Source of the DNA: Larkinella humicola
GTDB taxonomy: Bacteria; Bacteroidota; Bacteroidia; Cytophagales; Spirosomataceae
Direction: 5' to 3'
DNA: 64,000 nt
Assembly: GCF_008727875.1 (NCBI RefSeq)
Contig: NZ_VTWS01000001.1
Coordinates: forward strand, 620,001-684,000
Shown: piece by piece, positions 5,451 to 53,267 of the stretch
Layout: the number at the start of each line of letters is the position of its first letter
Numbering within the stretch: position 1 is the first letter of the stretch
Notes under the pieces: model-generated
What the model was told of the DNA's origin: nothing
The model's input: only the letters and a program-made list of their open reading frames with translations
The model's database searches: none
Made by a program: the position numbers and the translations under genes

Positions 5451-5547
5451 AATTTCAAATGAAAAAGGTTGAATGTTGAATGTAAAAGTGTTTAAAGAGC
5501 GTTATGCCACTTTTACATTCAACATTCAACCTTTTTCATTTGAAATT
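5451..5547. repeat. Long perfect inverted repeat A (40-bp arms, 17-nt loop) between convergent genes
   Basis: The arms 5451-5490 and 5508-5547 are perfect reverse complements. The left arm contains the word TTGAATG twice and ends AATGTAAAAGTG. Its composition is skewed: 9 G against 1 C. The repeat fills nearly all of the gap between the helicase stop (5436) and the acylase stop (5555), so it could stop transcription from both sides, although it lacks the GC-rich stem plus T-run of an ordinary intrinsic terminator. It shares AATGTAAAAGT with repeat F at 29919-30008. Confidence 0.9.
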
Positions 5548-5554
5548 AGAAATC

Positions 5555-7744
5555 CTATTCCCCAGGATGATACGTCCTGCCAACGTGTTGCTGAATATCT
5601 TCCGGGTAGAACCAGATGTCCTTGAATTTCCCGGCACTGAACAGCGCGGACTGATCATTGAAATGCGGAGAAGCCGGGTCGCTGCTGTGGCCGCCGTTGA
5701 CAACCGTCCGGGCTTTCACGCGATCGCCAAACTCCACGACAGCGACAAAACTATTGCCCACACTGCCGTATCTTTTTTTCGTTCCGGGATAGGTCCGTGC
5801 TCCAAATGACGCCAGCGATCCCCAGGTAGCGGAGGTGAAACCGACCGGAAAGCTGGGCTTCTGATCATCGAAGGTTTCTTTAATTTTTCCGGTAAGTCGC
5901 TGAAACCGGTTGATTTCGCCCCAGGGGGTTTTCCAGGTGCCAAAATCCCGCGTAAGCTCCTCCAGCACTTCGGCAAGTGCTTTCACTTTATCCTTCGGGC
6001 TTGTGTTTTTCACGACGTAGTCCGTAAACGTCAGAAAGTCAAACCGCTGATTTCCTTTGATTTGCGCACGGGCCAGCCGTTGAATCTTTTCGCCCCAGAA
6101 AACCGCCAGCGTGGTGGCCACTGAAGTTGTTCCGTACGTTTTATCCCAGTTGTTTAGCAGGTCAATGGCTTCGCCCAACGGTTTGGACGGTTCCTCTGAC
6201 TTGGCAGAAACGGTTTTATAGGCCTGCACCAGCGACGGAATCAGGTCGTCAAAACCGGGCAGATGGGGGTCGTTGGCGGCCGCAATCAGTGTATCCAACG
6301 TGAAAACCGACTTCTGGCTCAACACCTGGACCGCGTTGACGCCCCGGTAATTTTCGGCATCCGGTGCCATGTAGGTCGGATACTGGCTGATGGCCGGGCT
6401 GCTGGGTCCCGAAACGGAAAACGGCGTTGAATTGCAGTTCTGAATCCAGCCGCTAACCGGGTTTTTCACCTGCACAATCTCGGTGATGTCGTGTAGTCCT
6501 TTCCAGTCCGTTTCCGGATCGCTCCCATCGACGGGCTCGTTCCAGTTGAATTTCGGGTTTCGTTTCGGGATAAAATTTCCGTGCCAATACGCTATCGTTC
6601 CCCGGCGGTCGGCATAAACCGTGTTGTTGGTCGCATTACCATTGAGCTTCATGACGTTCTGATAGCTCTTGTAATCTTTGGCCTTCGTCCGCAGATACGA
6701 TTGCGCCAGCGCATTCAACGGGTCGTTCATCATGCTGATGGTGATCCACTTGTCACCGAGCTGACCCGCCACCGGGCCGTGGTGCGTGCGGTAAATTGTA
6801 AAGTCTTTGTGCTTGATTTCATTTCCGGATTTGTAGGGCAACGAGATCGTTTCGGTTTTCACCGGACGCCATTCCGTACCGGATTTGTACTGGTAAATGC
6901 CGTCTTTCTTTTCAACCGTTTCCAGGTACTCGTCCATCGAGTCGGCATCACCGGAGGTGTGCATCCAGCCACAATTCTGGTTAAACCCCTGGTAGACAAA
7001 AAACTGCCCCCAGGTTACAGCCCCGTATGCATTCAAGCCTTTTTTACTGACCACATGCACTTCCGACCGGAAATAGAACGAGGTGTGAGGATTAATCAAC
7101 AGCATGGCGTTTTTCGATGCGGTTTTAGAAGGCGCAATGGCAAAACCGTTCGATCCGACGGGTTCGCGATCGGTCTTCTCAAAATCATACGCCTGCGCCG
7201 ACCATTTCGAAATGGTATAAAACGCTTTGATCCGCTCCGTAGAAATAACACTCAGGTTCCCGCCGATGCTACCTTCGCTGAACATGAGGGGCATCCAGGG
7301 CTGAAACCGCGTTAATAAGCGCGGTTTGACATTGGGGTGTGTGGCCAAATAATAGTTCGTCCCCTCGGCAAAGGCATCCAGCAGTTTTTTCATCCAGGCC
7401 GGTGATTTTTTGTAGATCGCCATGGCCTGCGTGGTGTCCATAAAAAGCCGGGCGCGGAGATCGTGGTACAGGGCGTCTTCGCCGTCGACCTCGGCCATGC
7501 GGCCAAGGGCATCGATGTAATTTTCTTCCACCCGCGCAAAATCGTCTTCGCATTGGGAATACAACAGCCCGAAAACGACGTCAGCATCGGTTTTTCCGTA
7601 AATGTGCGGAATATCCCAGGTGTCGCGGGTGATGGTGATGCCTTTGGCCCGCTGCTGCCAGCGTTTGACTTCGTCGGGTCGGAAAGCCTGCGTCCAGGCG
7701 GGTAATGCACTCAGGAGAATAAGCAGGAAGAAAAGTGATCGCAT
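5555..7744 (-). CDS. Secreted penicillin acylase family hydrolase
   Basis: An N-terminal nucleophile hydrolase that cleaves amide bonds in N-acylated substrates (acyl-homoserine lactones, acylated amino acids or similar); the natural substrate is unknown. The start at 7744 is chosen because MRSLFFLLILLSALPAWTQA is a clean Sec signal peptide; an upstream in-frame extension of 30 residues has no such character. The precursor is then 729 aa, the usual size. The A-chain region includes ITRDTWDIPHIYG. The B chain should start at the serine in VGSNGFAIAPSKT (Ser198 of this form), which is the catalytic N-terminal Ser after autoprocessing. Later conserved pieces are NPHTSFYF and the Asn-containing NGNATNNTVYAD. 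The product is probably periplasmic. It stands alone and converges with the helicase gene across repeat A. Confidence 0.92.
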   Translation of the reverse strand: MRSLFFLLILLSALPAWTQAFRPDEVKRWQQRAKGITITRDTWDIPHIYGKTDADVVFGLLYSQCEDDFARVEENYIDALGRMAEVDGEDALYHDLRARLFMDTTQAMAIYKKSPAWMKKLLDAFAEGTNYYLATHPNVKPRLLTRFQPWMPLMFSEGSIGGNLSVISTERIKAFYTISKWSAQAYDFEKTDREPVGSNGFAIAPSKTASKNAMLLINPHTSFYFRSEVHVVSKKGLNAYGAVTWGQFFVYQGFNQNCGWMHTSGDADSMDEYLETVEKKDGIYQYKSGTEWRPVKTETISLPYKSGNEIKHKDFTIYRTHHGPVAGQLGDKWITISMMNDPLNALAQSYLRTKAKDYKSYQNVMKLNGNATNNTVYADRRGTIAYWHGNFIPKRNPKFNWNEPVDGSDPETDWKGLHDITEIVQVKNPVSGWIQNCNSTPFSVSGPSSPAISQYPTYMAPDAENYRGVNAVQVLSQKSVFTLDTLIAAANDPHLPGFDDLIPSLVQAYKTVSAKSEEPSKPLGEAIDLLNNWDKTYGTTSVATTLAVFWGEKIQRLARAQIKGNQRFDFLTFTDYVVKNTSPKDKVKALAEVLEELTRDFGTWKTPWGEINRFQRLTGKIKETFDDQKPSFPVGFTSATWGSLASFGARTYPGTKKRYGSVGNSFVAVVEFGDRVKARTVVNGGHSSDPASPHFNDQSALFSAGKFKDIWFYPEDIQQHVGRTYHPGE

Positions 7745-7851
7745 CGTACAGGGTGTAAAGGCGGTATTCGTTCCTTCGTAAGATAGGCCAAAACGCGAAA
7801 CCGGGCAAGCTTTGACAAGTAGATTGTGACTCAATCACCCAAAATGCAAAC

Positions 7852-7880
7852 AAAAAAGCCCAACATGGCTGTCGGGCTTT
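7852..7880 (-). terminator. Intrinsic terminator after trxA
   Basis: On the minus strand an 11-bp stem (AAAGCCCGACA pairing with TGTTGGGCTTT, one G-U pair, 4-nt loop) is followed by a T-run. It lies 30 bp after the trxA stop and closes the dnaE-mntA-hepT-trxA stretch. Confidence 0.85.
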
Positions 7881-7910
7881 GGCAATCTATGATAAAATAG
7901 CACGCAATTC

Positions 7911-8231
7911 TTACAATTGGGCTACTAATTTCTGTTCCAGAACGGATTTGGCAACGGCACCAATGACCTTGTCCACCATTTTTCCGTTTTTAAACACCAT
8001 CAAAGTCGGAATGCTGCGGATACCGAATTGGGCCGGAATCTGGGCATTCATGTCCACATCCATTTTCGCCACGATGGCTTTGCCTTCGTATTCGCCAGCC
8101 AGTTGTTCCACAACGGGTCCGATCATTTTACAGGGGCCACACCATTCAGCCCAAAAATCCACAAGTACCGGTATATCAGAATTGATTACTTCTGCGAAGT
8201 TGGCGTCGGTTATTTCAATCGCTTTTGCCAT
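7911..8231 (-). CDS. trxA: Thioredoxin
   Basis: A small cytoplasmic disulfide reductase that keeps protein thiols reduced and supplies electrons to ribonucleotide reductase and others. The 106-aa length is standard. The active site WCGPCK has its cysteines at residues 31 and 34, the fold-defining Asp is in VLVDFWAEW, and the cis-Pro segment is [14 protein letters not shown]. The start [12 protein letters not shown] fits family members. It is last in a co-directional run after dnaE and the MNT-HepT pair and is followed by an intrinsic terminator. Confidence 0.97.
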
Positions 8232-8299
8232 GATTGTATCTCGATTTTTTGTCTTCTTTAACTCTTATGTACGTACAATGTTTTGAATTGAAAAAAAGT

Positions 8300-8653
8300 T
8301 CAACGAACTGAATCATTCGTATTTTCAAGCAATTGTACAATTTCGCCTTTCAAAATTGGAAGGTGTTTGATCACAATTGACCACACAACTGTATCGTTCA
8401 CAGCATCATACGCATGTATAATTCGATTTCGGGTATCAACAATTCTCCGGGTATTAGAAATGGAAAGCGCAGAATCCAGACGCAATGCATTATTGGTTGC
8501 TTCTCCTATAATTTCGAGTTCCCGTTCCATAGCCCTGCGAAGCATTTTATTGGTTTGATATACCTGAAATGATCTATTGTTTGCCAGATAGCCATCTATT
8601 GAGTCTATAGAGACTACAATATCTGTCAAACATTTGCGGATTTCTTCGGTCAT
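8300..8653 (-). CDS. hepT: HepT-like toxin (DUF86 family), partner of the MNT antitoxin
   Basis: A small all-alpha HEPN-fold RNase of the type VII MNT-HepT toxin-antitoxin systems. The RX4HXY motif that defines the active site is intact as RNRIIHAY (about residues 76-83), which suggests a working RNase and a tyrosine available for AMPylation by the partner. Length (117 aa) is normal. Its ATG overlaps the antitoxin stop by 4 bp, the usual coupled arrangement with antitoxin first. HepT proteins form dimers in a larger complex with MntA. Whether it acts in phage defence or only as a stability element is not visible here. Confidence 0.88.
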   Translation of the reverse strand: MTEEIRKCLTDIVVSIDSIDGYLANNRSFQVYQTNKMLRRAMERELEIIGEATNNALRLDSALSISNTRRIVDTRNRIIHAYDAVNDTVVWSIVIKHLPILKGEIVQLLENTNDSVR

Positions 8654-8961
8654 TCCAAAATTGATATTTTGGTACGATTCACCGACCGAATGAAATACGG
8701 ATTCTGCAAAGTAACTTCTTCTACTAACTCAACCGGGCGTCCTAATAACGTTTCCAATTCTTCCGCCAGTTCAAAATAGTTATCCGCATAATCTTCAATT
8801 TTGATCTTTTCGCGATCAAAGCTGAGAAGTAAATCGATGTCACTATCCTGCTTAAAATGACCCGTACAAGCCGAGCCAAAAGCATATAATTTGCTTACGT
8901 GATGTCGCGCGGCAATTTGCCTGATAGGCTCAAGATTGTGTTCAATCAATGACGTTAACAT
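8650..8961 (-). CDS. mntA: MNT-type nucleotidyltransferase antitoxin
   Basis: A minimal nucleotidyltransferase (103 aa) with the full GSX10DXD signature: GS of AFGSACTG, ten residues, then DID. The third carboxylate is probably in the segment RPVELVEEVTL. In characterised MNT-HepT systems this protein transfers AMP to the HepT active-site tyrosine and silences the RNase. It starts 13 bp after the dnaE stop on the same strand, so it may be transcribed from the dnaE promoter. No separate promoter was recognised in the short gap. Confidence 0.88.
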   Translation of the reverse strand: MLTSLIEHNLEPIRQIAARHHVSKLYAFGSACTGHFKQDSDIDLLLSFDREKIKIEDYADNYFELAEELETLLGRPVELVEEVTLQNPYFIRSVNRTKISILE

Positions 8962-8974
8962 AATCTCTTCACTG

Positions 8975-11900
8975 TTAATTCAAACGATAGCCGACTCCAT
9001 CGATGGCGTCCAATTCTTTCAGTAATTCATTGACCGGCGAGATTTTAAACGGCCTCGACAGCATGCTGACGTCAACCCGGTCTTCGTCGTCCGTTACCCG
9101 CAGTATCAGGTTGCAGGAACCGGGATAGGTCTTCACCAGATCGGCAATTTTGGTCACAAACTCATTGTTAATCAGCTTCAAATCCAGTTGAACACACAAT
9201 TCTTTGCTGTATTTTGTCCGGACTTCGGTTAGTAACTGAATGAAATTCGGGCGGAATTCGAAGGCGTCGGAGTTCCAGCGGTTTTGCAGTTTTCCTTTCA
9301 CATGGAGAAACAAGCCTTCTTCGATGTAATTCCCCATTCGCACAAAATCCTCCCCGAATAAACTCATTTCGACCGTTCCATTGTAATCTTCCAGTTTGAA
9401 AATCACAAACGGGTTTCCGTTTTTCGACTGCCGGAGTTGCTTGGTTGTCACAATACCGCCCACGGTAATTTCCCGTCCCTGATTCGCTTCGTCGAATAGT
9501 TTATCGAGCGTACAGGTACAGAAACTTTCCAGTTCAATCCGAAATTCATCCAGCGGGTGACCGGAGATGTAAAAACCGACCACGTCTTTTTCGAATTTCA
9601 GCCGTTCAATCTCGCTCCAGGGCTCTACAACGGGCGGTTTAGGCCGGGCAATGTTGGGTTCTCCGCCAATTCCGCCAAACAACGATTGCTGGGCCGCCGA
9701 CTTTTCGGCGTGGTAATTATTGGCGTATCGCGTCAGTTTCTCAATATACGTGGCGGTTTCTCCCTCGGCGGGGGTAAAATACTGCGCCCGGTGGAATTCC
9801 TCCTGATTATCAAAGGCTCCCGCGTAGGCCAGACTTTCCAGCGTTTTTTTATTGACCGTTCGCAAATTGATCCGAATTACGAAATCGTACACATCTTTAA
9901 ACGGCCCGCCTTTTTTGCGTTCTTCAATGATGGAATCTACCGCTGCGTCGCCGGTACCTTTGATGGCACCCAATCCAAACCGGATTTCTCCTTTCTGGTT
10001 GACCCCGAAAAACCGCTCCGATTCGTTGATGTCCGGCCCCAAAACCGGAATGCCGATGGCTTTACATTCTTCCATGAAGAAGGTAATTTTTTCGATGTTG
10101 CCCAGTGAGCTGGTCAAAACGGCCGCCATGTATTCCGACTTGTAATGCGTTTTTAAATACGCGGTTTGGTACGCAACAAAGGCGTAACAAGTCGAGTGTG
10201 ATTTGTTAAAGGCGTAGGAGGCAAAGGCTTCCCAGTCGGTCCAGACTTTTTCGCAGGTCTTGATGGCCAGCTTGTTAGCCGCACAACCGTCCATAAACTT
10301 GCCCTTCATTTTGTCGAGCGTTGCGCGGTCTTTCTTTCCCATCGCCTTCCGCAACACGTCGGCATCCCCCTTCGTGAAGTTGCCCAATTTCTGCGACAGC
10401 AGCATTAATTGCTCCTGATAAACCGTGATCCCGTAGGTGTCTGCCAGGTATTCTTCCATTTCAGGCAAATCGTATTTCACTTCTTCCCGCCCGTGTTTCC
10501 GGTTGATAAAGTTAGGAATGTAGGCAATCGGGCCGGGGCGGTAGAGGGCGTTCATGGCAATCAAGTCCTCGAACCGGTCCGGTTTGAGGTCTTTCATGTA
10601 TTTTTTCATCCCGTCGGATTCGAACTGGAAAATCGCGTTCGTTTCACCGCGCTGGAAAGTTTTGTACGTTTCCTCGTCGTCGAGCGGAATGTCGTCAATG
10701 TCGGTTTCGACGCCGTTGACAAACAAACCGCCGTGGTTTTGCTTGATCAGCCGCAGGCTTTCCTTGATGATCGTGAGGTTTCGCAGACCCAGAAAGTCCA
10801 TCTTGATAACCCCCGCATCCTCAATCACTTTCCCCTCATACTGGGTAATGATCAAGTCGGATTCTTTGGACGTCGAAACCGGCACGATGTTCGATAAATC
10901 TTCGGGTGCGATGATGATCCCGGCCGCGTGAATACCGGTATTTCGGATGTTTCCTTCCAGTTTCCGGGCCTGTTTCAGCACTTTTGCCTGCAAGTCATTT
11001 CCCGACTCGATCGCCCGCATCTTTTTCACGTTCTCGACCTCTTCCGGCTGAATCATCATGCCCAGCGACTCGATGGAATCCTCAAAAATTTTCTTGAGGG
11101 TCATGTTGTACGTCGGCTTGTCGGGCACCAGTTTCGCCAGCGCATTCGATTCGGGCAGCGGCAGTTCCATCACTCGGGCCACGTCCTTGATGGCCGATTT
11201 GGCCGCCATCGTACCGTACGTTACGATTTGGGCTACCTGCTGTTTGCCGTATTTTTTGACTACGTAATCGATTACCTTCTGGCGACCTTCGTCGTCAAAG
11301 TCGGTATCAATATCGGGCATGGACTTCCGGTCGGGATTCAAAAACCGCTCGAACAGCAGGTTGTATTTGATCGGGTCGATGTTCGTTATTCCGATGCAAT
11401 AGGCCACCGCCGACCCAGCCGCCGACCCCCGGCCCGGTCCCACCATCACGCCCAGGTCGCGCCCGGCCTGAATGAAATCCGAAACGATCAGAAAGTACCC
11501 TGCAAAACCCATCTGGCGAATCACCCCCAGCTCAAACCGCAACCGCTCGTCGGCTTCGGGCGTCAACACCCGGTATCGTTGTTTGGCCCCTTCGAAGGTT
11601 AGAAATTCAAGGTAGTCATCCTGGGATGCAAAACCGTCGGGAATCACGAAGTTGGGCAGCAGAATGTCGCGCTTCAGTTTCAGCGTCTCCACCTTGTCCA
11701 CAATCTCGTTGGTGTTATCGATCGCTTCCGGCAAATCGCGGAAGAGCGTCGACATTTCCTGGGTATTTTTGAAGTAAAACTGGTCGCTGAAAAACGCAAA
11801 GCGGGTTCCTTTTTTAGAACCTTCCTCATCGTTGAATTCCTTTTCCGACGGCGTGCTCAGTTTTTCGTTCGTATTGACACACAGCAGGATGTCGTGTGCC

Positions 11901-12547: not shown

Positions 12548-12575
12548 GCTAATGTATTTTAACGACTGCTTTTTG

Positions 12576-25417: not shown

Positions 25418-25518
25418 TTGGTTTACGGTTTTCAGTATACGGTTTACGGTGGCTGATGCATTATACCTAGTGCTTATGAGCATGCGTCAGCCACCGTAAA
25501 CTGAAAACCGTAAACCAA
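25418..25518. repeat. Long inverted repeat B (36-bp stem, 7-nt unit difference between arms)
   Basis: The right arm 25483-25518 pairs with the left arm 25418-25435 plus 25443-25460, with one mismatch. The left arm holds 7 extra bases (TATACGG, 25436-25442) next to the related word TTTACGG, as if one repeat unit had been gained or lost. Arms are made of TTTACGG and TTTTCAG words. The left arm has 13 G and 6 C. It follows the hppA stop directly and comes before the ordinary terminator at 25517-25553. Confidence 0.88.
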
Positions 25519-25553
25519 AAAAAGCCAGCCCAATCAATAAGGGCTGGCTTTTT
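25517..25553. terminator. Bidirectional intrinsic terminator between hppA and rplY
   Basis: A 9-bp GC-rich stem (AGCCAGCCC with GGGCTGGCT, 9-nt loop) is flanked by an A-run on the left and a T-run on the right, so it can serve both convergent genes. This shows that an ordinary terminator exists beside the long repeat B. Confidence 0.9.
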
Positions 25554-25583
25554 ACGTCTAATCTATTAGCAATCAAACCGGTG

Positions 25584-26147: not shown

Positions 26148-26161
26148 TTTATATGAATTTT

Positions 26162-26311
26162 ATGGTTTTGATGGTTAAATGGTTTTAATGGCTGGATAGT
26201 TAAAAGGAATTGCCTGGTTTTGATGGTTGTACGGTTAAATGCTCTAGTTCTCTAAATCATTTAACCGTACAACCATTTTAACCATTAAAACCAATTAACC
26301 ATCGAAACCAT
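26162..26311. repeat. Nested inverted repeat C between prs and rplY
   Basis: An inner perfect hairpin has 19-bp arms (26223-26241 and 26258-26276, loop 16 nt). Outside it, 26162-26191 pairs with 26282-26311 over 30 positions with two mismatches. The left arms are repeats of ATGGTTTT and ATGGTTAA; the outer left arm has 9 G and no C. Together they fill nearly all of the 173-bp gap between the prs stop (26321) and the rplY start (26147), so an rplY leader or a prs tail would contain them. Confidence 0.88.
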
Positions 26312-26320
26312 GTATTCCAT

Positions 26321-27262
26321 TTAAGAATTTATAAACAATGAACTAATAGATTCATGATCGCGAATGCGGCCGATGGCTTTGGCAAACAAGTCCGCCACCG
26401 TCAGCACTTTTACTTTTGGACTCAGCTGGCGCAACGGCATGGTGTCGGACACCACGAGTTCTTCCAGCACCGAATTCGTAATGTTGTCGTGCGCTTTGCC
26501 CGACATCACCGGGTGCGTACAGATTGCTCGGACGGATTTGGCTCCTTTCTCCAGGATAATTTCAGCCGCCTTACACAAGGTTCCGCCCGTATCGATCAGG
26601 TCATCGACCAGAACGACATTGGCACCTTCCACATCCCCGATGACCTGCATCGAGGCAATTTCGTTGGCTCGCTTGCGGTGTTTGTCGCAAAGGACAATGT
26701 CGGCATTGAAATGCTTCGCAAACGTCCGGGCGCGGGCCGCACCACCAACGTCCGGCGAAGCAATCAGCAGGTTATCCAGATTCAGGTTTCGAATGTAAGG
26801 AACGAAAACCGAGGTTCCTTCCAGGTGATCGACCGGAAAATCAAAGAATCCCTGAATCTGCCCGGCGTGGAGGTCAATCGTCATCAGACGATCTGCCCCG
26901 GCAGCCGCCAGCATGTTGGCCACCAGTTTGGCGGCAATGGCCACCCGCGGTTTGTCTTTCCGATCCTGCCGGGCGTAACCGAAATACGGAATGACGACCG
27001 TTACGTAGTGAGCCGAGGCCCGACGTGCTGCGTCGACCATCAGCAACAACTCCATCAGGTTGTCGGCGGGCGGGTTTGTCGAATGAATCAGAAAAACGTC
27101 GCAACCCCGAACCGACTCTTCATAACTCGGAGACAACTCTCCATCGCTGAATTTACGCAGGGTGTAACCGCCGAGATTCTTACCGTAATGGTGAGCAATT
27201 TTCTCTGCCAGATACGTCGATTGACTACCTGAAAAAATCTTAACCGTGTTGAGGGATGCCAT
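26321..27262 (-). CDS. prs: Ribose-phosphate pyrophosphokinase
   Basis: Makes PRPP from ribose-5-phosphate and ATP for nucleotide, His and Trp synthesis; cytoplasmic and hexameric in studied members. The 313-aa length is standard. The PRPP-binding loop is VVLVDDLIDTGGTLCKAA, the flexible region has PYFGYARQDRKDKPR, and the ATP/Mg site has TIDLHAGQIQGFFD. The N-terminal KIFSGSQSTYLAEKIA fits class I enzymes. A TAnnTTTG promoter box lies 31 bp upstream. rplY follows on the same strand. Confidence 0.98.
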   Translation of the reverse strand: MASLNTVKIFSGSQSTYLAEKIAHHYGKNLGGYTLRKFSDGELSPSYEESVRGCDVFLIHSTNPPADNLMELLLMVDAARRASAHYVTVVIPYFGYARQDRKDKPRVAIAAKLVANMLAAAGADRLMTIDLHAGQIQGFFDFPVDHLEGTSVFVPYIRNLNLDNLLIASPDVGGAARARTFAKHFNADIVLCDKHRKRANEIASMQVIGDVEGANVVLVDDLIDTGGTLCKAAEIILEKGAKSVRAICTHPVMSGKAHDNITNSVLEELVVSDTMPLRQLSPKVKVLTVADLFAKAIGRIRDHESISSLFINS

Positions 27263-27977: not shown

Positions 27978-28068
27978 TGAATGAGTGAATGAGTGAATGA
28001 GCGATTGAGTGAATAGTGTGCGAAGATCCCGGCAAGCTATTCACTCAATCACTCATCCGCTCATTCAC
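27978..28068. repeat. Inverted repeat D with tandem 8-nt words, between trpS and PAP2 genes
   Basis: The left side begins with tandem GTGAATGA-type units (27978-28002). The arm 27993-28016 pairs with 28037-28068 perfectly except that the right arm has one extra 8-nt unit (reading GGATGAGT on the complementary strand). The left arm has 9 G and 1 C. It spans the whole gap from the trpS stop (28071) to the PAP2 start (27974). The same words make repeat E on the other side of trpS, and similar words make repeat I. Confidence 0.85.
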
Positions 28069-29058: not shown

Positions 29059-29150
29059 GTGAATGAGTGAATGAGCGAATGAGTGAATAGCTTCGCCAGA
29101 ATCATGCTTTCAGCGGAGCTATTCACTCATTCGCTCATTCACTCATTCAC
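29059..29150. repeat. Perfect inverted repeat E (34-bp arms) in the divergent trpS/DUF2461 gap
   Basis: Arms 29059-29092 and 29117-29150 are perfect reverse complements with a 24-nt loop. The arm is tandem 8-nt units close to GTGAATGA, with 12 G and 2 C in the left arm. Unlike the others it lies between divergent genes (trpS start 29045, next gene start 29201), so it cannot be only a terminator. A trpS transcript beginning beyond it would carry the hairpin in its leader. Confidence 0.92.
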
Positions 29151-29911: not shown

Positions 29912-29918
29912 ATGAATG

Positions 29919-30008
29919 ATAAATGTAAAATGATGAACGCCAAATGTAAAAGTATCCGGGTGCTTCCCTCTTCACTTTTACATTTGGCGTTCATCATTTT
30001 ACATTTAT
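29919..30008. repeat. Perfect inverted repeat F (35-bp arms, 20-nt loop) between convergent genes
   Basis: Arms 29919-29953 and 29974-30008 are perfect reverse complements. The left arm repeats AAATGTAAAA words and has 6 G and 3 C. It fills the gap between the DUF2461 stop (29911) and the DUF4332 stop (30016). It shares AATGTAAAAGT with repeat A, 24 kb away. Confidence 0.92.
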
Positions 30009-30015
30009 TATTTGA

Positions 30016-30950: not shown

Positions 30951-31030
30951 TATGGTTTCGGTTTACCGTCTCCGGTAGCTTTCGCTTGCCTTGTCAGCGA
31001 CTGAAAACTGTAAACCGAGTACTGTAAACT
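30951..31030. repeat. Degenerate member of the TTTACGG repeat family (G)
   Basis: Words such as CGGTTTAC (30959-30966), GTAAACCG (31010-31017) and ACTGTAAAC recur in the gap between the TonB receptor and DoxX genes. The only clear pairing is 8 bp, so any former palindrome has decayed. The words match those of repeat B. Confidence 0.4.
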
Positions 31031-41756: not shown

Positions 41757-41872
41757 GAAAGAGTTGTTTCGCGGAGTTGAGCGGAGTAAAAAAGAGCTAA
41801 GCAGAGTTTTCTATTATGATTTCTCTGTTTAACTCCTTTTTACTCCGCTCAACTCCTCGAAACAACTCTTTC
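41757..41872. repeat. Inverted repeat H (50-bp arms, 4 mismatches, 16-nt loop)
   Basis: The arms 41757-41806 and 41823-41872 pair over 50 positions with four mismatches, some of which become G-U pairs in RNA. The left arm repeats GGAGTTGA and GCGGAGT words, with 19 G and 5 C. It lies downstream of aconitase (stop at 41893) and upstream of kinase 4 (start 41656), both on the minus strand. It is the longest arm seen in the window. Confidence 0.9.
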
Positions 41873-45200: not shown

Positions 45201-46919
45201 TTACAAATTTTTATTTTGAAGGACGAGCGTACTGCGAAACCCGTCCGCGACGGACTGGCCCCGCAATTCCAGATCCGGATAATAATACGGCGAGCAGGGC
45301 TCTTCCAGTTCGAAACAACTCTGCACGGTGGGGGTATTGACCGGAACCAGCACCACCAAGCCACTTTGGGTACGTTCGCGGGTAAACAGTTCGGCCACCG
45401 TACCGTAATCACGATAGGTCAGTGGCTTTGGAAACAGGGCATAGGTTTGCAGTGGGAACCGCTCTTTCCAGAGAAAAACATACCCATAATACCCCAGCAA
45501 AATGCCGATCAGCCCCACCACGAGGGTGTTGGTCCAGGGCATGATATTCCAGAAATTGGTTTTAGCCGGCAGGAAGGGTAAAACGGGCAAAAAAGCGGTC
45601 ATCCAGACAAAGGCATACCCGAACCGGAATTCCGGAGCCGATAAGAACCAGAACAGGAAACCGGCCAATGCAGCCCCGTAGGGCATCACCAGCGGTTGAA
45701 AACGGATTCGGCGCACGGGACTAAAAAAATGGCTCAGGGCCAGAAAAGGTGACACGACGGCCAGCAGCCAGGTTGGTTTGTTCAGAAAATAATAATCTTT
45801 GTATTGCCACCAGGCTGGAATCCATTCCGACGCCGGTGTTTTCAGACGTGATGCGTCATAATACGGTTCGATAATCCGGAATTTGGCCCAGAACTCGACA
45901 AAATCCTTTTCAAAACGCACCCGCTCCACCGGAATTTTCCAATCAAATGAAAACAGGTCCAGCGCCGGGAAAGGATACAGCAGATACCCCGACAGAATCG
46001 TTGTCCGAACCATCCAGGGCAAAACCGTCAACAGACCCAACCCGCCCATCCACACGAAATGACGGACGGTAAGCTGCTTTCTGACCGCCCAGGCAAGCGG
46101 CACCAGACCCAGCGCAATGGGAATCGTTGCTAATTTGACTGTAATGCAAACACAAACCAGCATGAACAGGAGGACGTGTCGAATGGAAAAAACCGGTCGA
46201 AGTTCCAGCCAGATCAGGAAGATGGTAATGGGCAGCAGCGCCCCCCACACATCGGGCGTCGGCGAAAAGACTTGCCGAATCTGGTAGAAAAGCAGAAGGC
46301 TCAGAATGACAACGGCTAAAAACCGGACGGGCGTGGCCGAGCGGATCTGGCTCAACAGCCGCCAGCAGACGACGAGATACAGAAATCCGTTGAGCGGAAA
46401 CAGCGTCTGACCTGCCCAGTCCGTGAAACCAAAGGCCGCCGAAGTGACCAGAAAACTGGAATTAAAAGCCAGCCGTCCGTGCAGATTACCCAAACCGGGA
46501 ATGACCCGAAACCGTTCGTACCAGCGCATGGAAGGCAAATGGTACATCCCACTGTCGATGTTGGCCGGTTCGAGGGCTGAGTAGAGCAATACAACCACCA
46601 CAAAGAGCCAGAAAAGCGGAATCTGTTTCTGCTGCCGCGTAAATCGCCGAAAATAAGCCAAAACGGAGGGCGGAGACCCTGCGGCCATCAAAACCGCCCC
46701 GGCCAGCCAGCCCAGAGCCAGGTAATGGTTGGCTGGCAGGAAAATGGAAGCCAGTTGCACGAACACAACCAGCAGACACAGCCCGACCAACACCAGATCA
46801 CTCCCTTTGACCGGCTCCGAATCATTGATCAAGCGCCATCGAATCAACAGTTTGTAGAAAGATAAACCGTAAGCAAAACAACCGGACGCCAGAACCGCCC
46901 ACAGAACCAGAAGTATCAT
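45201..46919 (-). CDS. Large polytopic membrane protein, glycan-type
   Basis: A 572-aa protein with about 12-13 hydrophobic segments starting at MILLVLWAVLASGCFAYG. A large outward loop region (about 340-400) and a C-terminal soluble tail (about 510-570) have no motif I recognise. The layout resembles GT-C-type or polysaccharide-assembly membrane proteins often found beside family 2 glycosyltransferases, but I see no DxD or similar catalytic motif I would trust. With the downstream glycosyltransferase it may build a glycolipid. Function unknown. Confidence 0.75.
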   Translation of the reverse strand: MILLVLWAVLASGCFAYGLSFYKLLIRWRLINDSEPVKGSDLVLVGLCLLVVFVQLASIFLPANHYLALGWLAGAVLMAAGSPPSVLAYFRRFTRQQKQIPLFWLFVVVVLLYSALEPANIDSGMYHLPSMRWYERFRVIPGLGNLHGRLAFNSSFLVTSAAFGFTDWAGQTLFPLNGFLYLVVCWRLLSQIRSATPVRFLAVVILSLLLFYQIRQVFSPTPDVWGALLPITIFLIWLELRPVFSIRHVLLFMLVCVCITVKLATIPIALGLVPLAWAVRKQLTVRHFVWMGGLGLLTVLPWMVRTTILSGYLLYPFPALDLFSFDWKIPVERVRFEKDFVEFWAKFRIIEPYYDASRLKTPASEWIPAWWQYKDYYFLNKPTWLLAVVSPFLALSHFFSPVRRIRFQPLVMPYGAALAGFLFWFLSAPEFRFGYAFVWMTAFLPVLPFLPAKTNFWNIMPWTNTLVVGLIGILLGYYGYVFLWKERFPLQTYALFPKPLTYRDYGTVAELFTRERTQSGLVVLVPVNTPTVQSCFELEEPCSPYYYPDLELRGQSVADGFRSTLVLQNKNL

Positions 46920-47343
46920 TTTAAGAGATTGAAGCGATTAAAACCGAAAGATCGTCCGCCGAAGTGGCCATGGCGGATCGTTTCATCCTTCAACATTAGG
47001 CATTTTAGGGGTTGAATTCACAAATAAAATTATTTCTTTTCTAAACGGCGTCATCATCCGGCAGACTCAAGGGCTTCAACCTGATTAATAATAGAGGGTT
47101 AAACCGCCAAAGCCGTTGCCTCAACGTAGTTTCCGGCCCCAATCCTGCGGTTGAATCTGATCATTTTTACCTAGTTTTCCTGAACGTTTAGCCCCCCAAA
47201 ATCGTTATAAAAACGCAACGATCACCCGCCCGGCCACCTTTCCCGCCTATAGATTTGTAAGTATTACGTCTTTTGCTTCTATATTTGGCACGAGACGTGG
47301 GGACCGATTGTCGGTGCAGTTTTAACATTCAACCTGAATCTAT
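46920..47343. other. 424-bp gap upstream of topA and the membrane-protein gene
   Basis: This divergent gap has no ORF I would support. It holds the topA promoter near its right end (47254-47287) and a weak imperfect inverted pair TCCGCC/GGCGGA around 46957-46980. I see no ncRNA or riboswitch I can name. Confidence 0.5.
47254..47287 (+). promoter_or_regulatory. Candidate topA promoter
   Basis: TTTG (47254-47257), 22 nt, then TATATTTG (47280-47287), the Bacteroidota -33/-7 arrangement with spacing at the edge of the usual range. The ATG is at 47344, giving a leader of roughly 50 nt. Confidence 0.6.
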
Positions 47344-49896
47344 ATGTCAAAAAACCTGGTTATCGTGGAATCACCCGCGAAGGCGAGGACCATTGAAGGG
47401 TATCTGGGTAAAGATTTCGTGGTAAAATCGAGCTATGGTCATGTTCGGGATTTACCAAAAGATGATATGGCGATTGACATCCAGAATGGCTTTCGTCCGA
47501 TCTACGAAGTCTCTCCCGATAAACGACAGGTTATCAGTGAATTAAAGAAACTGGTAAAGGAATCTGAGGTCATCTGGCTCGCAACGGACGACGACCGCGA
47601 AGGGGAAGCCATCTCCTGGCATTTGAAAGAAGCACTGGGTCTGAAAGACGATACCAAACGGATTGTTTTTCATGAGATTACCAAAAAAGCGATTCAGAAC
47701 GCCATTGATTCACCCCGTCTGATCGATATTGATTTGGTGAATGCCCAGCAGGCCCGTCGTGTTCTTGACCGGCTGGTGGGGTTTGAATTGTCACCGGTTT
47801 TATGGAAAAAGATCAAATCGGGCAGTTCGATGGCCTTATCGGCGGGTCGCGTGCAATCGGTTGCGGTTCGGCTCATAGTGGAGCGCGAACGTGAAATCGA
47901 CGGCCACAGCACGAAATCCAGCTACAAGGTGACGGCCCAGTTCATTGTCGACAACGGCAAGATTCTGAACGCCGAATTGCCCAAAAATTTCGGCACGCTC
48001 GACGAAGCGCGCGCTTTTCTGGACAAATGCCGGGCAGCCATTTTCACGATCAAAAATCTGGAAACCAAACCCGCCAAGAAATCGCCCGCACCGCCCTTTA
48101 CCACCTCGACGCTGCAACAGGAAGCCTCCCGCAAATTGTCATTCTCGGTTTTGCAAACCATGACCCTGGCGCAAAAACTGTACGAGAGCGGGAAGATTTC
48201 TTACATGCGGACGGACTCGATCAGTCTGTCGCAGGAAGCCATCGACAAGGCGAAACAGGCGATTACGACCGATTTTGGGGAGAAATACGTTCATACCCGC
48301 CAATACAAAACCAAATCCGAATCGGCGCAGGAAGCCCACGAAGCCATTCGACCAACCGATTTTTCGGTCAAAACCGCCGGGGGTGACCGCAACGAACAAC
48401 GCTTGTATGACCTGATCTGGAAACGCTCCATTGCCTCCCAAATGGCAGATGCCCAACTGGAACGGACGACAGCCACCATCGGCATTTCGACCACGCCGGA
48501 AGAATTGATTGCACAAGGTGAGGTGATCAAGTTCGACGGTTTTCTGAAAGTGTATCTGGAATCTACCGACGACGAAGACGAAGAAAGCAAAGGCATGCTG
48601 CCTCCACTTTCGATTGGTCAGGTGTTGAATCTGGATCAGATGAAAGCCTCTCAACGATTCAGCCGCCCTGCTCCCCGGTATACGGAAGCCAGTCTGGTGA
48701 AAAAACTGGAAGAAATGGGTATCGGCCGGCCGTCGACCTACGCGCCGACGATTTCGACCATCGTTAAACGGCAGTACGTCATCAAGGAAGACCGGCCCGG
48801 CAAAGAGCGCGATTTCAAGGAATTGATTCTGAAAAAGGGTGAAATCGAGGAAAAAACCGGCAAAGAAAATTACGGTTCCGAAAAAGCCAAGCTCTTCCCA
48901 ACCAACATGGGGTTGGTGGTGAACGATTTTCTGGTCGAATATTTCGAAGGGATTGTCGATTATAAGTTTACGGCCAACGTCGAGAAGGAATTTGATGAGA
49001 TCGCCAACGGCAAAATGGGTTGGCAGGACATGATTCAGAATTTCTACGGCGACTTCCACCGGAACGTAGAAACCGTGCAGGGTGCCGCTCCAACGGGCTC
49101 GAAACCGGGTAGCCGGGATTTGGGAATTCACCCTGAATCGGGCAAAAAGGTGTCGGCCCGACTCGGAAAATACGGCGCTTACGTCCAGATTGGGGAAGCC
49201 ACCGACGAAGACAAACCGCAGTTTGCCAACCTCAAAAAAGACCAGTTGATCGAAACCATCTCACTCGAAGATGCCCTCGATCTGTTCTCGCTGCCCCGCG
49301 AAGTCGGCTTTTTTGAAGACAAACCGATGGTGATCGGCATTGGCAAGTTTGGCCCGTATGTCCGGCACGACGACAAGTACGTCTCGCTTTCGAAAGAAGA
49401 CGATCCCTACACGATTACGGCCGAACGCACCGTCGAACTGATTCAGCAAAAGCGGTTGGAAAACATCAGCGAATCCATCGGGGAGTTTGAAGGCAAGCTG
49501 ATTTCCACCGGAAAAGGCCGTTTTGGCCCGTATGTCAAACACGACGACAAATACATTTCGCTGCCGAAAGGCGAATCGCCTGCCGGTTTGACGCTGGAAC
49601 GCGCCATCGAACTGATTCAGGCCAAACGCTTGACGGAGAGCAATAAATACATCAAGGAGTTTCCGGAAAATCCGGCGGTGAAAGTCGTCAACGGTATGTA
49701 TGGCCCCTACATTGCCATCGGAAAACGGAATGTCAAAATCCCGAAGGATGTTGAACCGGCAACGTTGACCCTGGAAGACTGCCTGAAACTGGCGGGCGAT
49801 ACGGGTAGCGAGGAAAAACCCAAAGCAAAGAAAGTGTCAAAAGCACCGGCAACACGTCCCGCTGCGGCCAAGAAAACCGCTGTAAAAAAGAAGTAA
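47344..49896 (+). CDS. topA: DNA topoisomerase I (type IA)
   Basis: Relaxes negative supercoils; cytoplasmic. The Toprim domain opens the protein (MSKNLVIVESPAKARTIEGYLG) and has the DDDREGEAISWH acidic site. The catalytic Tyr is in GKISYMRTDSISLS. Conserved core pieces include LSAGRVQSVAVRLI and GIGRPSTYAPTI. The C-terminal part (about 585-820) has no zinc-finger cysteines. Instead it has four repeats of the GxYGPYVxxxxKYxSL type, as in FGPYVRHDDKYVSL and MYGPYIAIGKRNVKI, followed by a Lys/Ala-rich tail. Length 850 aa. A terminator lies 25 bp after the stop. Confidence 0.97.
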   Translation: MSKNLVIVESPAKARTIEGYLGKDFVVKSSYGHVRDLPKDDMAIDIQNGFRPIYEVSPDKRQVISELKKLVKESEVIWLATDDDREGEAISWHLKEALGLKDDTKRIVFHEITKKAIQNAIDSPRLIDIDLVNAQQARRVLDRLVGFELSPVLWKKIKSGSSMALSAGRVQSVAVRLIVEREREIDGHSTKSSYKVTAQFIVDNGKILNAELPKNFGTLDEARAFLDKCRAAIFTIKNLETKPAKKSPAPPFTTSTLQQEASRKLSFSVLQTMTLAQKLYESGKISYMRTDSISLSQEAIDKAKQAITTDFGEKYVHTRQYKTKSESAQEAHEAIRPTDFSVKTAGGDRNEQRLYDLIWKRSIASQMADAQLERTTATIGISTTPEELIAQGEVIKFDGFLKVYLESTDDEDEESKGMLPPLSIGQVLNLDQMKASQRFSRPAPRYTEASLVKKLEEMGIGRPSTYAPTISTIVKRQYVIKEDRPGKERDFKELILKKGEIEEKTGKENYGSEKAKLFPTNMGLVVNDFLVEYFEGIVDYKFTANVEKEFDEIANGKMGWQDMIQNFYGDFHRNVETVQGAAPTGSKPGSRDLGIHPESGKKVSARLGKYGAYVQIGEATDEDKPQFANLKKDQLIETISLEDALDLFSLPREVGFFEDKPMVIGIGKFGPYVRHDDKYVSLSKEDDPYTITAERTVELIQQKRLENISESIGEFEGKLISTGKGRFGPYVKHDDKYISLPKGESPAGLTLERAIELIQAKRLTESNKYIKEFPENPAVKVVNGMYGPYIAIGKRNVKIPKDVEPATLTLEDCLKLAGDTGSEEKPKAKKVSKAPATRPAAAKKTAVKKK

Positions 49897-49920
49897 ATAC
49901 CGCTCCGTCCATCGGTATGA

Positions 49921-49952
49921 AGCCACTCAATCAAAATTGAGTGGCTTTTTTT
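49921..49952 (+). terminator. Intrinsic terminator of topA
   Basis: A perfect 10-bp stem (AGCCACTCAA with TTGAGTGGCT), 6-nt loop and a T-run. It is an ordinary rho-independent terminator and a useful contrast to the long word-repeat palindromes. Confidence 0.92.
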
Positions 49953-50060
49953 ACCATTTCATCAGGGCGCTTTCCTGCCCGAGCAGTCATGGTTAGAAAC
50001 AGCCGCTTTTTAGTTTCCGAAAGTTGAACTACTTTAAGCGCGCATTCTGTAGTATGTATC

Positions 50061-50771
50061 ATGCCCAAACGTCTTAAACTGGTTGTGCTTTCCGGTGCCG
50101 GGATCAGTGCCGAAAGCGGCTTGAAAACCTTCCGTGACTCCAACGGGCTGTGGGAAAACCACCGCATCGAAGATGTTGCCACGCCCGAAGGCTGGGCGAA
50201 AGATCCGGATCTGGTGCTTGAATTTTATAACCAGCGCCGGAAACAGGCCCTGGCCGCCCAGCCCAACGCCGGCCATCTCGCGTTAAAATCCCTGGAGAAG
50301 TCTTATGAGGTGACCATTATCACCCAGAACGTAGATAATCTGCACGAAAAAGCCGGTTCGTCGTCGGTGATCCACCTGCACGGCGAACTGTTCAAGTCGC
50401 GCAGCACGCGGGATGAAAACCTGGTGTACGACATCGACGGCTGGGAGTTGAAACGGAACGATCGCTGTGAAAAAGGGGCGCAATTGCGCCCCCACATTGT
50501 CTGGTTTGGCGAAGCCGTGCCGATGATGGAAACTGCCGTTGACCTGACCCATGCCGCCGACATTCTGATCATTGTCGGCACCTCGATGGTGGTTTATCCG
50601 GCAGCCGGTTTGATCGACTACGTTCGGCCGGGGGTCCCGATTTACGTGGTCGATCCGAACGTGCCGGATATACGTCCCCGCAAAAATCTGACGTTTATTC
50701 CCGAACCAGCCACGACGGGATTGTCGCGGCTGGCCGAGCAGTTGATCGTCAATGCAGCGGGCGGGGCTTGA
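50061..50771 (+). CDS. cobB: Sir2-type NAD-dependent protein deacylase lacking most zinc-site cysteines
   Basis: A sirtuin (236 aa) that removes acyl groups from lysine using NAD. NAD-binding GAGISAESGLKTFRDSNGLW, TQNVDNLHEKAG and the catalytic His in VIHLHGEL are intact, as is GTSMVVYPAAGL. The FYNQRRKQAL segment keeps the Tyr and Arg that favour succinyl/malonyl-lysine in CobB/SIRT5-type enzymes, so desuccinylase activity is likely. The zinc module is poor: between HGEL and RPHIVWFGE only one cysteine remains (NDRCEKG) where CobB has several, so the loop should fold without zinc. Its end overlaps the converging yitT gene by 23 bp. Confidence 0.92.
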   Translation: MPKRLKLVVLSGAGISAESGLKTFRDSNGLWENHRIEDVATPEGWAKDPDLVLEFYNQRRKQALAAQPNAGHLALKSLEKSYEVTIITQNVDNLHEKAGSSSVIHLHGELFKSRSTRDENLVYDIDGWELKRNDRCEKGAQLRPHIVWFGEAVPMMETAVDLTHAADILIIVGTSMVVYPAAGLIDYVRPGVPIYVVDPNVPDIRPRKNLTFIPEPATTGLSRLAEQLIVNAAGGA

Positions 50772-51639
50772 TCATCCCGCCTTTTACGTCGGCGATGCTG
50801 TGTTCAATCAGAAAGGCTTTTTCGTCGACTTCACTAATTTTATCTTTCAAGCGGGTGATCTCCAGGCGGGTAACAACCGCGTACAGAATATTGATGTCGT
50901 TTTCCCGCATGCCGCGTTTGCCGAATCCTTTCTCACCCTTCAGAACGGTGACCCCGCGTTCGAGTTCTTCCGTGATCAATTGGCGCACTTCTTCGTGCCG
51001 ATCCGAAACAATCATAACGGCGATGTATTCCTCAATTCCGTGGATGATGAAATCAACGGTTTTAGAGGCTGAGAGATACGTCAACATGGCGTAAAGGGCG
51101 GTTTCAACGTTGATAAACACGGCGGCTGACCCAAAAATCAGGACGTTAATCACCATGATGACATCTCCTACCGACAAGGGTGACCGCCGGCTTACGTAAA
51201 TTGCAAGTACCTCCGTACCATCGAGAACTCCGCCCCCCCGCATGGTGAGCCCGATCCCGGCACCGAGGAAAAACCCACCAAAGACGGCAATCAGCAGTTT
51301 ATCCGTTGTCACAATGGGATACGGAATAAAAGCGAGGCACAAAGCCAGCAATCCAATTCCGACGGCGGTTTTGATGGCAAACACCCAGGAAACCTGTCGA
51401 AATCCCATCCAGATAAACGGTAAACTGACCACGACCACCAATATGGACAGGTCAATACCGGTTTTGATCTGAAGCAGCAGCGAAATACCGATAACGCCCC
51501 CGTCCAGAAAATCATTGGGTAATAAAAATCCTTTTAGTCCCATTCCGGCGCAGAGAACGCCCAGTACAATAAATATAGCTTCTTTAATTTCACGAAAAAC
51601 GGCCGAATTTCGGGCGCGTTGTATGCGTTTTTTCACCAT
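50749..51639 (-). CDS. YitT family membrane protein (DUF161/DUF2179)
   Basis: A 296-aa inner-membrane protein with about five to six TM segments (20-200) of the YitT/DUF161 group (signature GFLLPNDFLDGGVIGISLLL) and a C-terminal cytosolic DUF2179 domain (about 210-290; MIVSDRHEEVRQLITEELERGVTVLKGEKGFGKR). The family is widespread and its transport role is not known. The gene converges on the sirtuin gene with a 23-bp overlap of coding ends. Confidence 0.92.
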   Translation of the reverse strand: MVKKRIQRARNSAVFREIKEAIFIVLGVLCAGMGLKGFLLPNDFLDGGVIGISLLLQIKTGIDLSILVVVVSLPFIWMGFRQVSWVFAIKTAVGIGLLALCLAFIPYPIVTTDKLLIAVFGGFFLGAGIGLTMRGGGVLDGTEVLAIYVSRRSPLSVGDVIMVINVLIFGSAAVFINVETALYAMLTYLSASKTVDFIIHGIEEYIAVMIVSDRHEEVRQLITEELERGVTVLKGEKGFGKRGMRENDINILYAVVTRLEITRLKDKISEVDEKAFLIEHSIADVKGGMIKPRPLH

Positions 51640-51794
51640 GATTCCTGAGTTGATTGTGGATAATTAACTGATTATCAAAACCATATATATTTACAGTCTC
51701 TTCCTGATCCGTTGACCTCACAGATTGTGTCAGCGGCTGAACGGTAGAATTCCTACGAAAGGTCGCAAGGATTTCAGGAGTAAATACAGTAATC

Positions 51795-52163
51795 TCAGGG
51801 GGCGTTGATGGCGATCTGGTGGCCAAAAAGACGCCGAAACCAGGCGAAAAAATAATAGAAGACATCGCGCCGGAGAGGAAGCGCCACACCGTTGATCGAC
51901 ACCCCAATTGCAGAAATAATTGCAAAAAAGGGCAACGGAATCTGGTGAGAAACCGTGGGGGTGACCAGGGCTTCGTGAACAAACAACTGAGTAAAACCGT
52001 CGGTTAGATTGTCCGTCAGTTCAAAACCGGATGACACATCAATCGTCGCCACTTTCAGGGACGGCTCCTTCCCCTGTTCAGCAGACACCCCGGCCCGGGA
52101 GGCCAGCGTCCACCCGATCAGGAGGAAAGAAATCACATGAAAAAGGGGGCGATACAAGGGCAT
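51795..52163 (-). CDS. Small secreted hypothetical protein
   Basis: A 122-aa candidate with a signal-peptide-like N-terminus (MPLYRPLFHVISFLLIGWTLASRAGVSAE) when the ATG at 52163 is used. The mature part has no known motif; a second hydrophobic stretch (PFFAIISAIGVSINGVALPL) and an aromatic-rich end (FYYFFAWFRRLFGHQIAINAP) are visible. Small exported proteins of this style occur in Spirosoma-like genomes, but I cannot match this one. A TATACTTG box (52215-52222, minus) one base off the -7 consensus lies upstream. It could be a spurious frame. Confidence 0.5.
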   Translation of the reverse strand: MPLYRPLFHVISFLLIGWTLASRAGVSAEQGKEPSLKVATIDVSSGFELTDNLTDGFTQLFVHEALVTPTVSHQIPLPFFAIISAIGVSINGVALPLRRDVFYYFFAWFRRLFGHQIAINAP

Positions 52164-52299
52164 CAAAGAATCATTTTTAGTCAAACGATGGTAAATCCCA
52201 CAGTGCGGATTTTACAAGTATACTAAATTTTTCGCTAAAAAGCCAGCCTGCTTTCAAACAATGTGCAAGAAAACCGGCCAATCGTCTGCGTAAAACCGC

Positions 52300-52307
52300 T
52301 ACCTTTG
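52300..52307 (+). promoter_or_regulatory. Candidate -7 box for folD
   Basis: TACCTTTG fits TAnnTTTG exactly and lies 19 bp before the folD ATG. No -33 TTG is visible at the usual distance. Confidence 0.5.
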
Positions 52308-52326
52308 CGTTTTATCGAATTAGCGC

Positions 52327-53208
52327 ATGCAACTCCTCGACGGAAAAGTTCTCTCCCAGCAAATCAAACAGGAACTCGCGGCTGAAGTCGCCGAAATTAA
52401 ATCCCAGGGTGGCAAAACTCCGCACCTGGTCGCCATTCTGGTCGGCACGGCGGGGCGTAGTGAAACCTACGTAGCCAGCAAAATGAAGAGCTGCGAAGAA
52501 ATCGGCATGGCCTCGACGCTCATCCGGTTCGAGGATACGGTTTCCGAAGCGGAGCTGATCGACGCCGTTCAGGCCGTCAACGCCAATCCGGACATGGACG
52601 GTCTGATTGTTCAGTTGCCCCTGCCCGCCCACATTTCGGCCGACAAAGTCATGGAAACCATCGATCCGGCCAAAGACGTGGACGGTTTTCATCCCATCAA
52701 CATTGGCCGGATGGCCAAAGGATTACCGGCCTATATTTCGGCCACTCCGCAGGGCATTCTGGAAATGCTGCAACGGTATCAGATCGAAACCGCCGGCAAG
52801 CACTGCGTGGTGGTGGGCCGCAGTCAGATTGTGGGTTTACCCATGAGCATCCTGATGCAGCGCAACACATACCCCGGCAATTGCACGGTGACCATGACCC
52901 ACAGCCGGACGCAAAATCTGCCGGAAATTTGTCGTTCGGCGGATATTCTGATTGCCGCTCTGGGCCGACCGGAATTTATCACCGCCGACATGGTGAAAGA
53001 AGGGGCTGTGGTAATCGACGTCGGGCTGGAACGCGTACCGGATGCCTCAAAAAAAAGCGGTTTTGCCCTGAAAGGTGATGTAAAATTCGACGAGGTGGCC
53101 CCCAAAACGAGCTACATCACCCCCGTTCCCGGTGGTGTTGGCCTGATGACGATCTGCTCCCTGATGCAAAATACGCTCAAATCGGCCCGCAAGGAAGTTT
53201 ATCATTGA
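52327..53208 (+). CDS. folD: Methylenetetrahydrofolate dehydrogenase/methenyl-THF cyclohydrolase
   Basis: A bifunctional enzyme of one-carbon metabolism that interconverts 5,10-methylene-, methenyl- and 10-formyl-THF. The catalytic-domain motif [22 protein letters not shown] has the conserved Tyr and Lys (YVxxK), and [26 protein letters not shown] is the family signature. The NADP domain has [17 protein letters not shown], and the C-terminal signature is [15 protein letters not shown]. Normal length (293 aa). Its stop lies inside the left end of palindrome I. Confidence 0.97.
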
Positions 53209-53267
53209 GTGATTTGTGATTGAGTGATGAGAAGGATGCAGTGTCACTCAATCACAAATCACTCAAT
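53204..53267. repeat. Perfect inverted repeat I (24-bp arms) between convergent folD and protease genes
   Basis: Arms 53204-53227 and 53244-53267 are perfect reverse complements with a 16-nt loop. The left arm is TTGAGTGA words with 8 G and almost no C. It overlaps the folD stop codon and ends 5 bp from the stop of the converging gene. The words relate to repeats D and E. Confidence 0.9.

Follow-up and report, generated by a model that had tools for sequence, protein, structure and literature searches.

The window analysed here is a 64,000-nucleotide stretch of the 7.86-Mb genome of Larkinella humicola (contig NZ_VTWS01000001.1, positions 620,001 to 684,000), in which eight gaps between genes hold long inverted repeats. 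They represent a class of intergenic inverted repeats of approximately 60-130 bp, hereafter word palindromes, whose arms are runs of mostly 7-nt, C-poor words placed around a small inner hairpin. Many intergenic gaps of this genome hold such repeats built of short G-rich words, with G enriched in the 5' arm and C in the 3' arm (G-first; the reverse order is C-first). Between related species of Larkinella the site and the G-before-C order usually persisted, also at sites whose letters were replaced, and the two arms often changed jointly.

Eight palindromes and their gaps

All eight repeats, described in an earlier note on this DNA, were recovered where that note had placed them, and a recount of G against C in the 5' arms, given in brackets below, found them G-first in 8/8.

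A, 5451..5547, unstranded: perfect 40-bp arms of ATGTTGA/ATGTAAAAG words with a 17-nt loop, between convergent PIF1-type helicase and penicillin amidase genes (9:1)
B, 25418..25521, unstranded: TTTACGG words flanking a degenerate GGCTGACGCA-type core with GCGTCAGCC at 25484-25492 as its right half, between convergent H+-pyrophosphatase and ribosomal protein L25 genes (7:3 in the 26-bp outer part)
Ordinary terminator adjoining B, 25517..25556 (ends approximate), unstranded: GCCAGCCC...GGGCTGGC with A and T tracts, C-first
C, 26149..26324, unstranded: nested repeat of ATGGTT words with outer arms 26149-26191/26282-26324 and inner arms 26215-26247/26252-26284, between ribose-phosphate pyrophosphokinase and L25 genes (6:1 in the inner part)
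D, 27985..28068, unstranded: TGAATGAG words, between tryptophan/tyrosine-type tRNA synthetase and PAP2 genes (12:1)
E, 29059..29150, unstranded: TGAATGAG words with a AGCTTCGC inner part, between divergent tRNA synthetase and DUF2461 genes (13:4)
F, 29915..30012, unstranded: ATGTAAAA words, between convergent DUF2461 and DUF4332 genes (7:3)
H, 41757..41872, unstranded: 50-bp arms of GAGTTGAGCG-type 10-nt words, between aconitase and histidine kinase genes (18:5)
I, 53204..53267, unstranded: GATTGAGT words, between a convergent folD-type gene and open reading frame 53273-56209 (8:0)

The arms consisted of low-complexity words distinct from repetitive extragenic palindromic (REP) type repeats, and they coexisted with ordinary terminators, both of which (near 25517 and 49921) are visible in the sequence; on these points the earlier note was right. 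Its figure of 1 in 128 for eight repeats sharing one polarity by chance overstated the significance: some words are common to D and E, and the copies belong to families. RNA folds of the eight palindromes gave z-scores of -7.1 to -16.4. A weaker TTTACGG-type inverted repeat (78% complementary) at 30958-31018, between MauE-like and TonB-receptor genes, is probably a decayed ninth member.

Polarity, period and inner core

A survey of 864 kb of the L. humicola genome at a score cut-off of >=16 yielded 127 palindromes, against 0 in a mononucleotide shuffle of the same sequence. The genome-wide polarity anticipated by the earlier note did not extend to every long palindrome, given that the 127 of all types comprised 85 G-first, 35 C-first and 7 ties. 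It was found in a self-folding-free subclass, defined blind to strand by a self-stem <=4, a loop >=9 and an arm >=18, in which 73 were G-first and 9 C-first, with 2 ties. Palindromes with self-complementary arms, GCCCC...GGGG and REP-like types among them, leaned C-first (9:19, 3 ties), and the remaining 22 divided 9:10. Splitting by self-stem alone gave 77:16 (G-first:C-first) at 4 or below and 8:19 above 4; the proposal that the bias keeps each arm from folding on itself thus stands as a correlation, which does not establish the causal order.

The self-folding cut-off was fixed after our own data had shown self-complementarity to separate the groups, and for this reason loci of the Spirosoma group and words anchored on the inner core are the better tests of polarity. 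Loci from Spirosoma and allies were 17:4 G-first:C-first with 1 tie (p 0.007). The inner hairpin, GGCTGACGCA-N(4-30)-TGCGTCAGCC, occurred in 25 copies in the L. humicola genome against 0 of the reversed control. The 30 bases before this core were G-rich in 34/35 loci (34:1, four genera) despite widely differing words, and across the 35 loci the arm 3' of the core was often a near-perfect complement of the words before it. The core was found in 24/181 genomes and 4/30 genera of the family, in 7/291 genomes of the order, all within the same family, and in 1/60 genomes of the phylum, that one being L. humicola. In the inner core, the part examined, GACG/CGTC lies inside the stem; the GTAG or CGTC tag of REPs is terminal and lies outside it.

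Among close relatives, the self-folding-free class was 41:5 in Larkinella sp. C7 (hereafter C7) and 8:2 in Larkinella punicea, counts that are not independent of each other or of those from L. humicola since the three are closely related. Other Larkinella gave 3:1, other Cytophagales 5:1 with 2 ties, and 360 kb sampled broadly from Bacteroidota 0:2 (1 tie). Density per 100 kb fell from 9.7 in L. humicola to 5.3 in the Spirosoma group, 3.8 in other Larkinella, 0.9 in other Cytophagales and 0.8 in the broad Bacteroidota sample; among the sampled loci, the class is therefore common in one section of the family and scarce outside it. When counted per word family within L. humicola, polarity hinged on how families were clustered, at 20:5 (p 0.004), 15:4 (p 0.019) and 9:4 (p 0.27) for shared 11-, 10- and 9-mers, respectively. 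Two earlier clusterings were discarded as too coarse, one having merged 118/127 arms and the other having given 17:8 and 22:11 families, not significant; a first tandem-score classifier was dropped for the same fault. One family was mixed, in that AATATTCG-type words were C-first at C11 358340 and 306823 (region B) of L. humicola and a related set in C7 (site 348564) was G-first.

Polarity had the same sign in all gap types, at 46:6 in convergent, 59:7 in codirectional and 14:2 in divergent gaps (L. humicola, C7 and L. punicea). The 5' arms contained 34.5% A, 25.9% T, 27.8% G and 11.8% C. Background skew was rejected as the source, with coding strands at 27.3% G and 27.0% C and the sense strands of palindrome-free gaps slightly C-rich.

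Arm autocorrelation peaked at 7 and 14 nt whatever the word, with a shift-7 z of +20.9 in L. humicola and +12.6 in C7, of +10.2 without the two commonest families, and of +13.1 in core-anchored words of other genera. Some words were 8 or 10 nt long rather than 7, and 12 hand-picked Spirosoma-group arms peaked at 8 (z +8.4) with a lesser peak at 7 (z +4.7). Within palindromes, the G-rich strand of 7-nt arrays read into the gap from whichever gene edge was nearer (23:4), and lone 7-nt arrays with no partner had the same orientation (11:1, 1 tie) at gene starts and gene ends alike; the rule is therefore independent of transcription direction. Words differed in reach. The exact 23-mer GAATGAGTGAATGAGCGAATGAG was present in 11/242 genomes of the order, spanning 6 genera and two families, whilst the ATGTAAAA family was confined to Larkinella (5/181 genomes). 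G-first palindromes of TGAATGAG words were also seen in another family of the order (loci L231-L234), where the 23-mer formed G-first palindromes at 4/5 loci and a single arm at 1.

Sites and words in related species

In orthologous gaps with flanks 81-98% identical, content turned over faster than place. Retention in C7 was counted by hand and eye at the 33 word sites with anchors in that genome; 35/72 sites of region A and two sites of region B had no anchors and were not used, and three terminator-like sites (A 286221, A 346221 and B 12136), each of them kept, count towards neither the word nor the non-word palindromes. One of the 33 could not be classified. Among the 32 resolved, 21 carried the same words and 7 another family, 2 were decayed and 2 were lost with a one-arm remnant, such that 28/32 were still palindromic in C7. 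Maintenance of the arms as palindromes between close strains, on which the earlier note had staked its case, was in the main borne out. The words swapped in were G-first by eye in 7/7 cases, as were those of one further swap in L. punicea, which is not independent evidence of polarity because most families are G-first. Automatic labels for the self-folding-free class against C7 (same/swap/none, 16/11/9) were overruled by eye: the swaps at A 287457 and W 26223 had been labelled 'same' and 'none', and several automatic 'swaps' were same-word arms that had been shortened, or REP-like inserts.

The window illustrates this range. The arms of A were identical in C7 with the loop inverted save one mismatch, and the F loop was an exact inversion in C7 (20/20 bases). 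At H, C7 and L. punicea carried the same word family, and at I several Larkinella species had related words. The word arms of E were seen in 9/9 Larkinella genomes, some of them decayed. Other words occupied the remaining sites, namely AGACAAGAGAGGAT in both C7 and L. punicea at B, AGACAAGAGA in C7 at C, and other words in other Larkinella at D.

Several further rearrangements were observed. Where the terminator beside B (25517-25556) stands in L. humicola, both C7 and L. punicea have another, longer terminator. In L. punicea, the right arm at the site of 25418 had expanded to several tandem TCTCTTGTCTTACC units and the left arm had not, and the arms at the site of 53204 were split by an insert of ~0.4 kb with a REP-like palindrome. 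Palindromes of the REP-like (CGTGCCGGAGG) and GCCCC...GGGG types occurred in only one of the two strains compared, some of them sitting inside word palindromes; examples lie at C11 107160, 197086 and 301880 of L. humicola, and, in C7 and L. punicea, at the position corresponding to region B 7872 of L. humicola.

Origin, rival explanations and meaning

The explanation we favour, to which we would give an even chance, is heptamer slippage combined with template switching at fixed intergenic hairpins, in a class limited to one lineage. New units would arise by polymerase slippage, as proposed earlier for other heptamers (PMC4692102, in the sections available to us). Template switching at the hairpin would then rewrite one arm on the model of the other; this process homogenises arms and inverts spacers in the accessible parts of two reports (PMC8604942, PMC8794818) and would also account for the inverted loops. 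Word families may reach new sites via copying between dispersed elements, and the hairpin may also end transcripts. Slippage and template switching would thus explain the period, the near-perfect arms, the joint changes and the inverted loops by known processes. Joint change was scored in 17 same-family ortholog pairs, 2/17 of which were not word palindromes: both arms had changed alike at 26 sites against 1.6 expected, and as neighbouring sites can change in one event, 26 sites do not equal 26 events.

That reservation weighs against the favoured explanation, and so do several other results. The same 17 pairs showed 40 one-arm changes and 4 of other kinds, hence many changes hit a single arm. 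Only A and F, 2/9 scorable loops, were inverted relative to C7, the other 7 not being so, and where a palindrome is perfect over 39-40 bp, an inverted loop could stem from misassembly. The self-complementary control class also carried a shift-7 signal, albeit weaker (z +4.2). Moreover, slippage and template switching alone explain neither the family swaps at old sites nor the polarity.

For the polarity, our best guess lies at the level of DNA: when the hairpin stalls or breaks a fork, the G-rich strand would be the one whose 3' end faces the centre, on either side. By analogy, this G-first geometry might be likened to two telomeres joined head to head. An improbable extension is a sequence-independent writing rule, under which C-poor 7-nt units would be added on the strand with its 3' end to the centre, on both sides of a hairpin or break, and arms would be replaced wholesale at rebuilding. 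SbcCD has a role at palindromes, and one route would be its action on broken hairpins, followed by repair synthesis with 7-nt slippage; the L. humicola genome contains an SbcD homologue, which could open such hairpins. Were this rule true, the genome would keep the site and the rule, not the letters. A reverse transcriptase as the writer was rejected, with no PF00078 match in the L. humicola genome.

Besides slippage and template switching, a function in transcription has to be considered. The palindromes lie mostly at gene 3' ends, and it is possible, as we tentatively propose, that the hairpin is tolerated there and assists in terminating or trimming the transcripts that arrive from either side. 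We consider it somewhat unlikely that the palindromes are bidirectional terminators in which selection maintains the RNA hairpin and leaves the letters free provided a helix forms. The very stable predicted folds favour such terminators, as does placement: 141 members in L. humicola, C7 and L. punicea were distributed as 52 in convergent, 69 in codirectional and 16 in divergent gaps and 4 elsewhere, among 227 convergent, 736 codirectional and 226 divergent gaps available, so that convergent gaps were the most densely occupied (52/227 versus 16/226 divergent), and the median distance to a stop codon was 8.5-9 nt. Ordinary terminators were also rarer in gaps with a word palindrome than in those without (convergent 6/44 versus 21/88, p 0.25; codirectional 1/48 versus 41/374, p 0.07; stratified over both gap types, p 0.033), which gives weak support to a role at 3' ends.

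Other results count against selected terminators or against the milder role at gene ends. The exclusion of ordinary terminators is weak, as neither gap type alone was significant. By inspection, no T tract followed the eight window stems, bar the separate terminator beside B, a count that was not made genome-wide. Mismatches showed no sense-RNA signature (G-U versus A-C, 45 versus 35, p 0.31), and 16/141 members lay between divergent genes, with the same polarity. Two further results speak against selected terminators: over all stretches, ordinary terminators leaned the other way from the palindromes (57 C-first, 27 G-first, 13 ties), and one-armed remnants and one-sided expansions occur.

That the palindromes are REP-like repeats or miniature inverted-repeat transposable elements, moved by a transposase and persisting at sites through preferred insertion at gene ends or into older palindromes, is unlikely in our view. 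The arms do form dispersed families, other palindromes of the genome do behave as present/absent inserts, some of them within word palindromes, and REPs are known at gene ends and inside longer palindromes (PMC3733652, as far as its available text goes). However, word sites were kept in C7 at 28/32, whereas REP-like and other non-word palindromes were kept at 3/14 (hand count), and copies shared their arms but mostly not their loops. REPs are linked to a Y1 transposase (RAYT), but none of seven Y1 transposase matches in the L. humicola genome had a word palindrome within 1.5 kb on each side (0/7 loci), a result that addresses a linked enzyme only.

The earlier note had also suggested that the C-rich 3' arm loads Rho, an account that now seems very improbable. 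This arm is C-rich and G-poor by construction, yet it is the second to be made and in the predicted fold pairs with the G-rich arm that precedes it, the opposite, C-first order would be more favourable to loading, and the polarity was equal between divergent genes and the mismatches neutral, as given above; arm order and predicted folds thus disfavour Rho loading. Just as improbable is a stop-codon guard, in which TGA-rich words block read-through translation from either side, and it was rejected: TGA was indeed commoner in the 5' arms than in their complements (203 versus 43) but TAA, which is independent of G/C, numbered 130 versus 108, approximately as the A/T imbalance predicts.

The closest known system is that of the G-rich heptamers of Xanthomonas and Nostoc (PMC4692102, here and below from those sections). 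These share with the word palindromes 7-nt units, a mostly intergenic location, a G-rich strand reading into the gap and scarcity between divergent genes; Xanthomonas further shows the same gaps with variable length and sequence between relatives, and has 70 and 75 array pairs, convergent on opposite strands. The Xanthomonas and Nostoc arrays use one unit able to form G-quadruplexes (GGGAATC or GGGGA(T/C)T), through which the Xanthomonas arrangement has been explained, whereas Larkinella uses many different words; the pattern of four GGG runs was absent from its G-first arms (0/122), and a weaker two-quartet pattern occurred in 11/122. Near-perfect palindromes, a conserved inner hairpin and word-family swaps also set Larkinella apart from those heptamers, so far as the partial description allows.

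REPs and their paired forms (REPINs), GTAG- or CGTC-tagged, are likewise dispersed intergenic palindromes near gene ends, with several families per genome and some copies within longer palindromes, but in the available text of PMC3733652 they are 20-40 bp long, conserved in sequence and bear an unpaired tag. The Larkinella class is longer, changing in sequence, polar and heptameric, with no transposase found beside it and, at 28/32 sites kept, no such present/absent behaviour. Template-switch (quasipalindrome) mutation (PMC8794818, PMC8604942) shares compensatory two-arm change and, if the A and F loops are correctly assembled, spacer inversion; it is a mutation mechanism and not a class of element, and in the portions available it predicts neither 7-nt words nor an invariable order of G before C. 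Intrinsic terminators, too, form hairpins downstream of stop codons and act in both directions where genes converge; the Larkinella class differs from them in its longer stem and loop, its lack of a T tract and its opposite polarity. No description of the class in Larkinella or Spirosoma was found in the open-licence PMC literature, which is no proof of absence.

Larkinella thus shows a heptamer-type arrangement without the four-GGG quadruplex motif and with a G-before-C rule, an argument against the quadruplex as the cause of the arrangement in Xanthomonas. Template switching and slippage at hairpins can be tested in this class on many naturally occurring copies. If selection or mutation preserves the order and the 7-nt unit while the letters are replaced, then compensatory changes in a stem need not mean a selected RNA, and the sequence of a non-coding site does not reveal its conservation.

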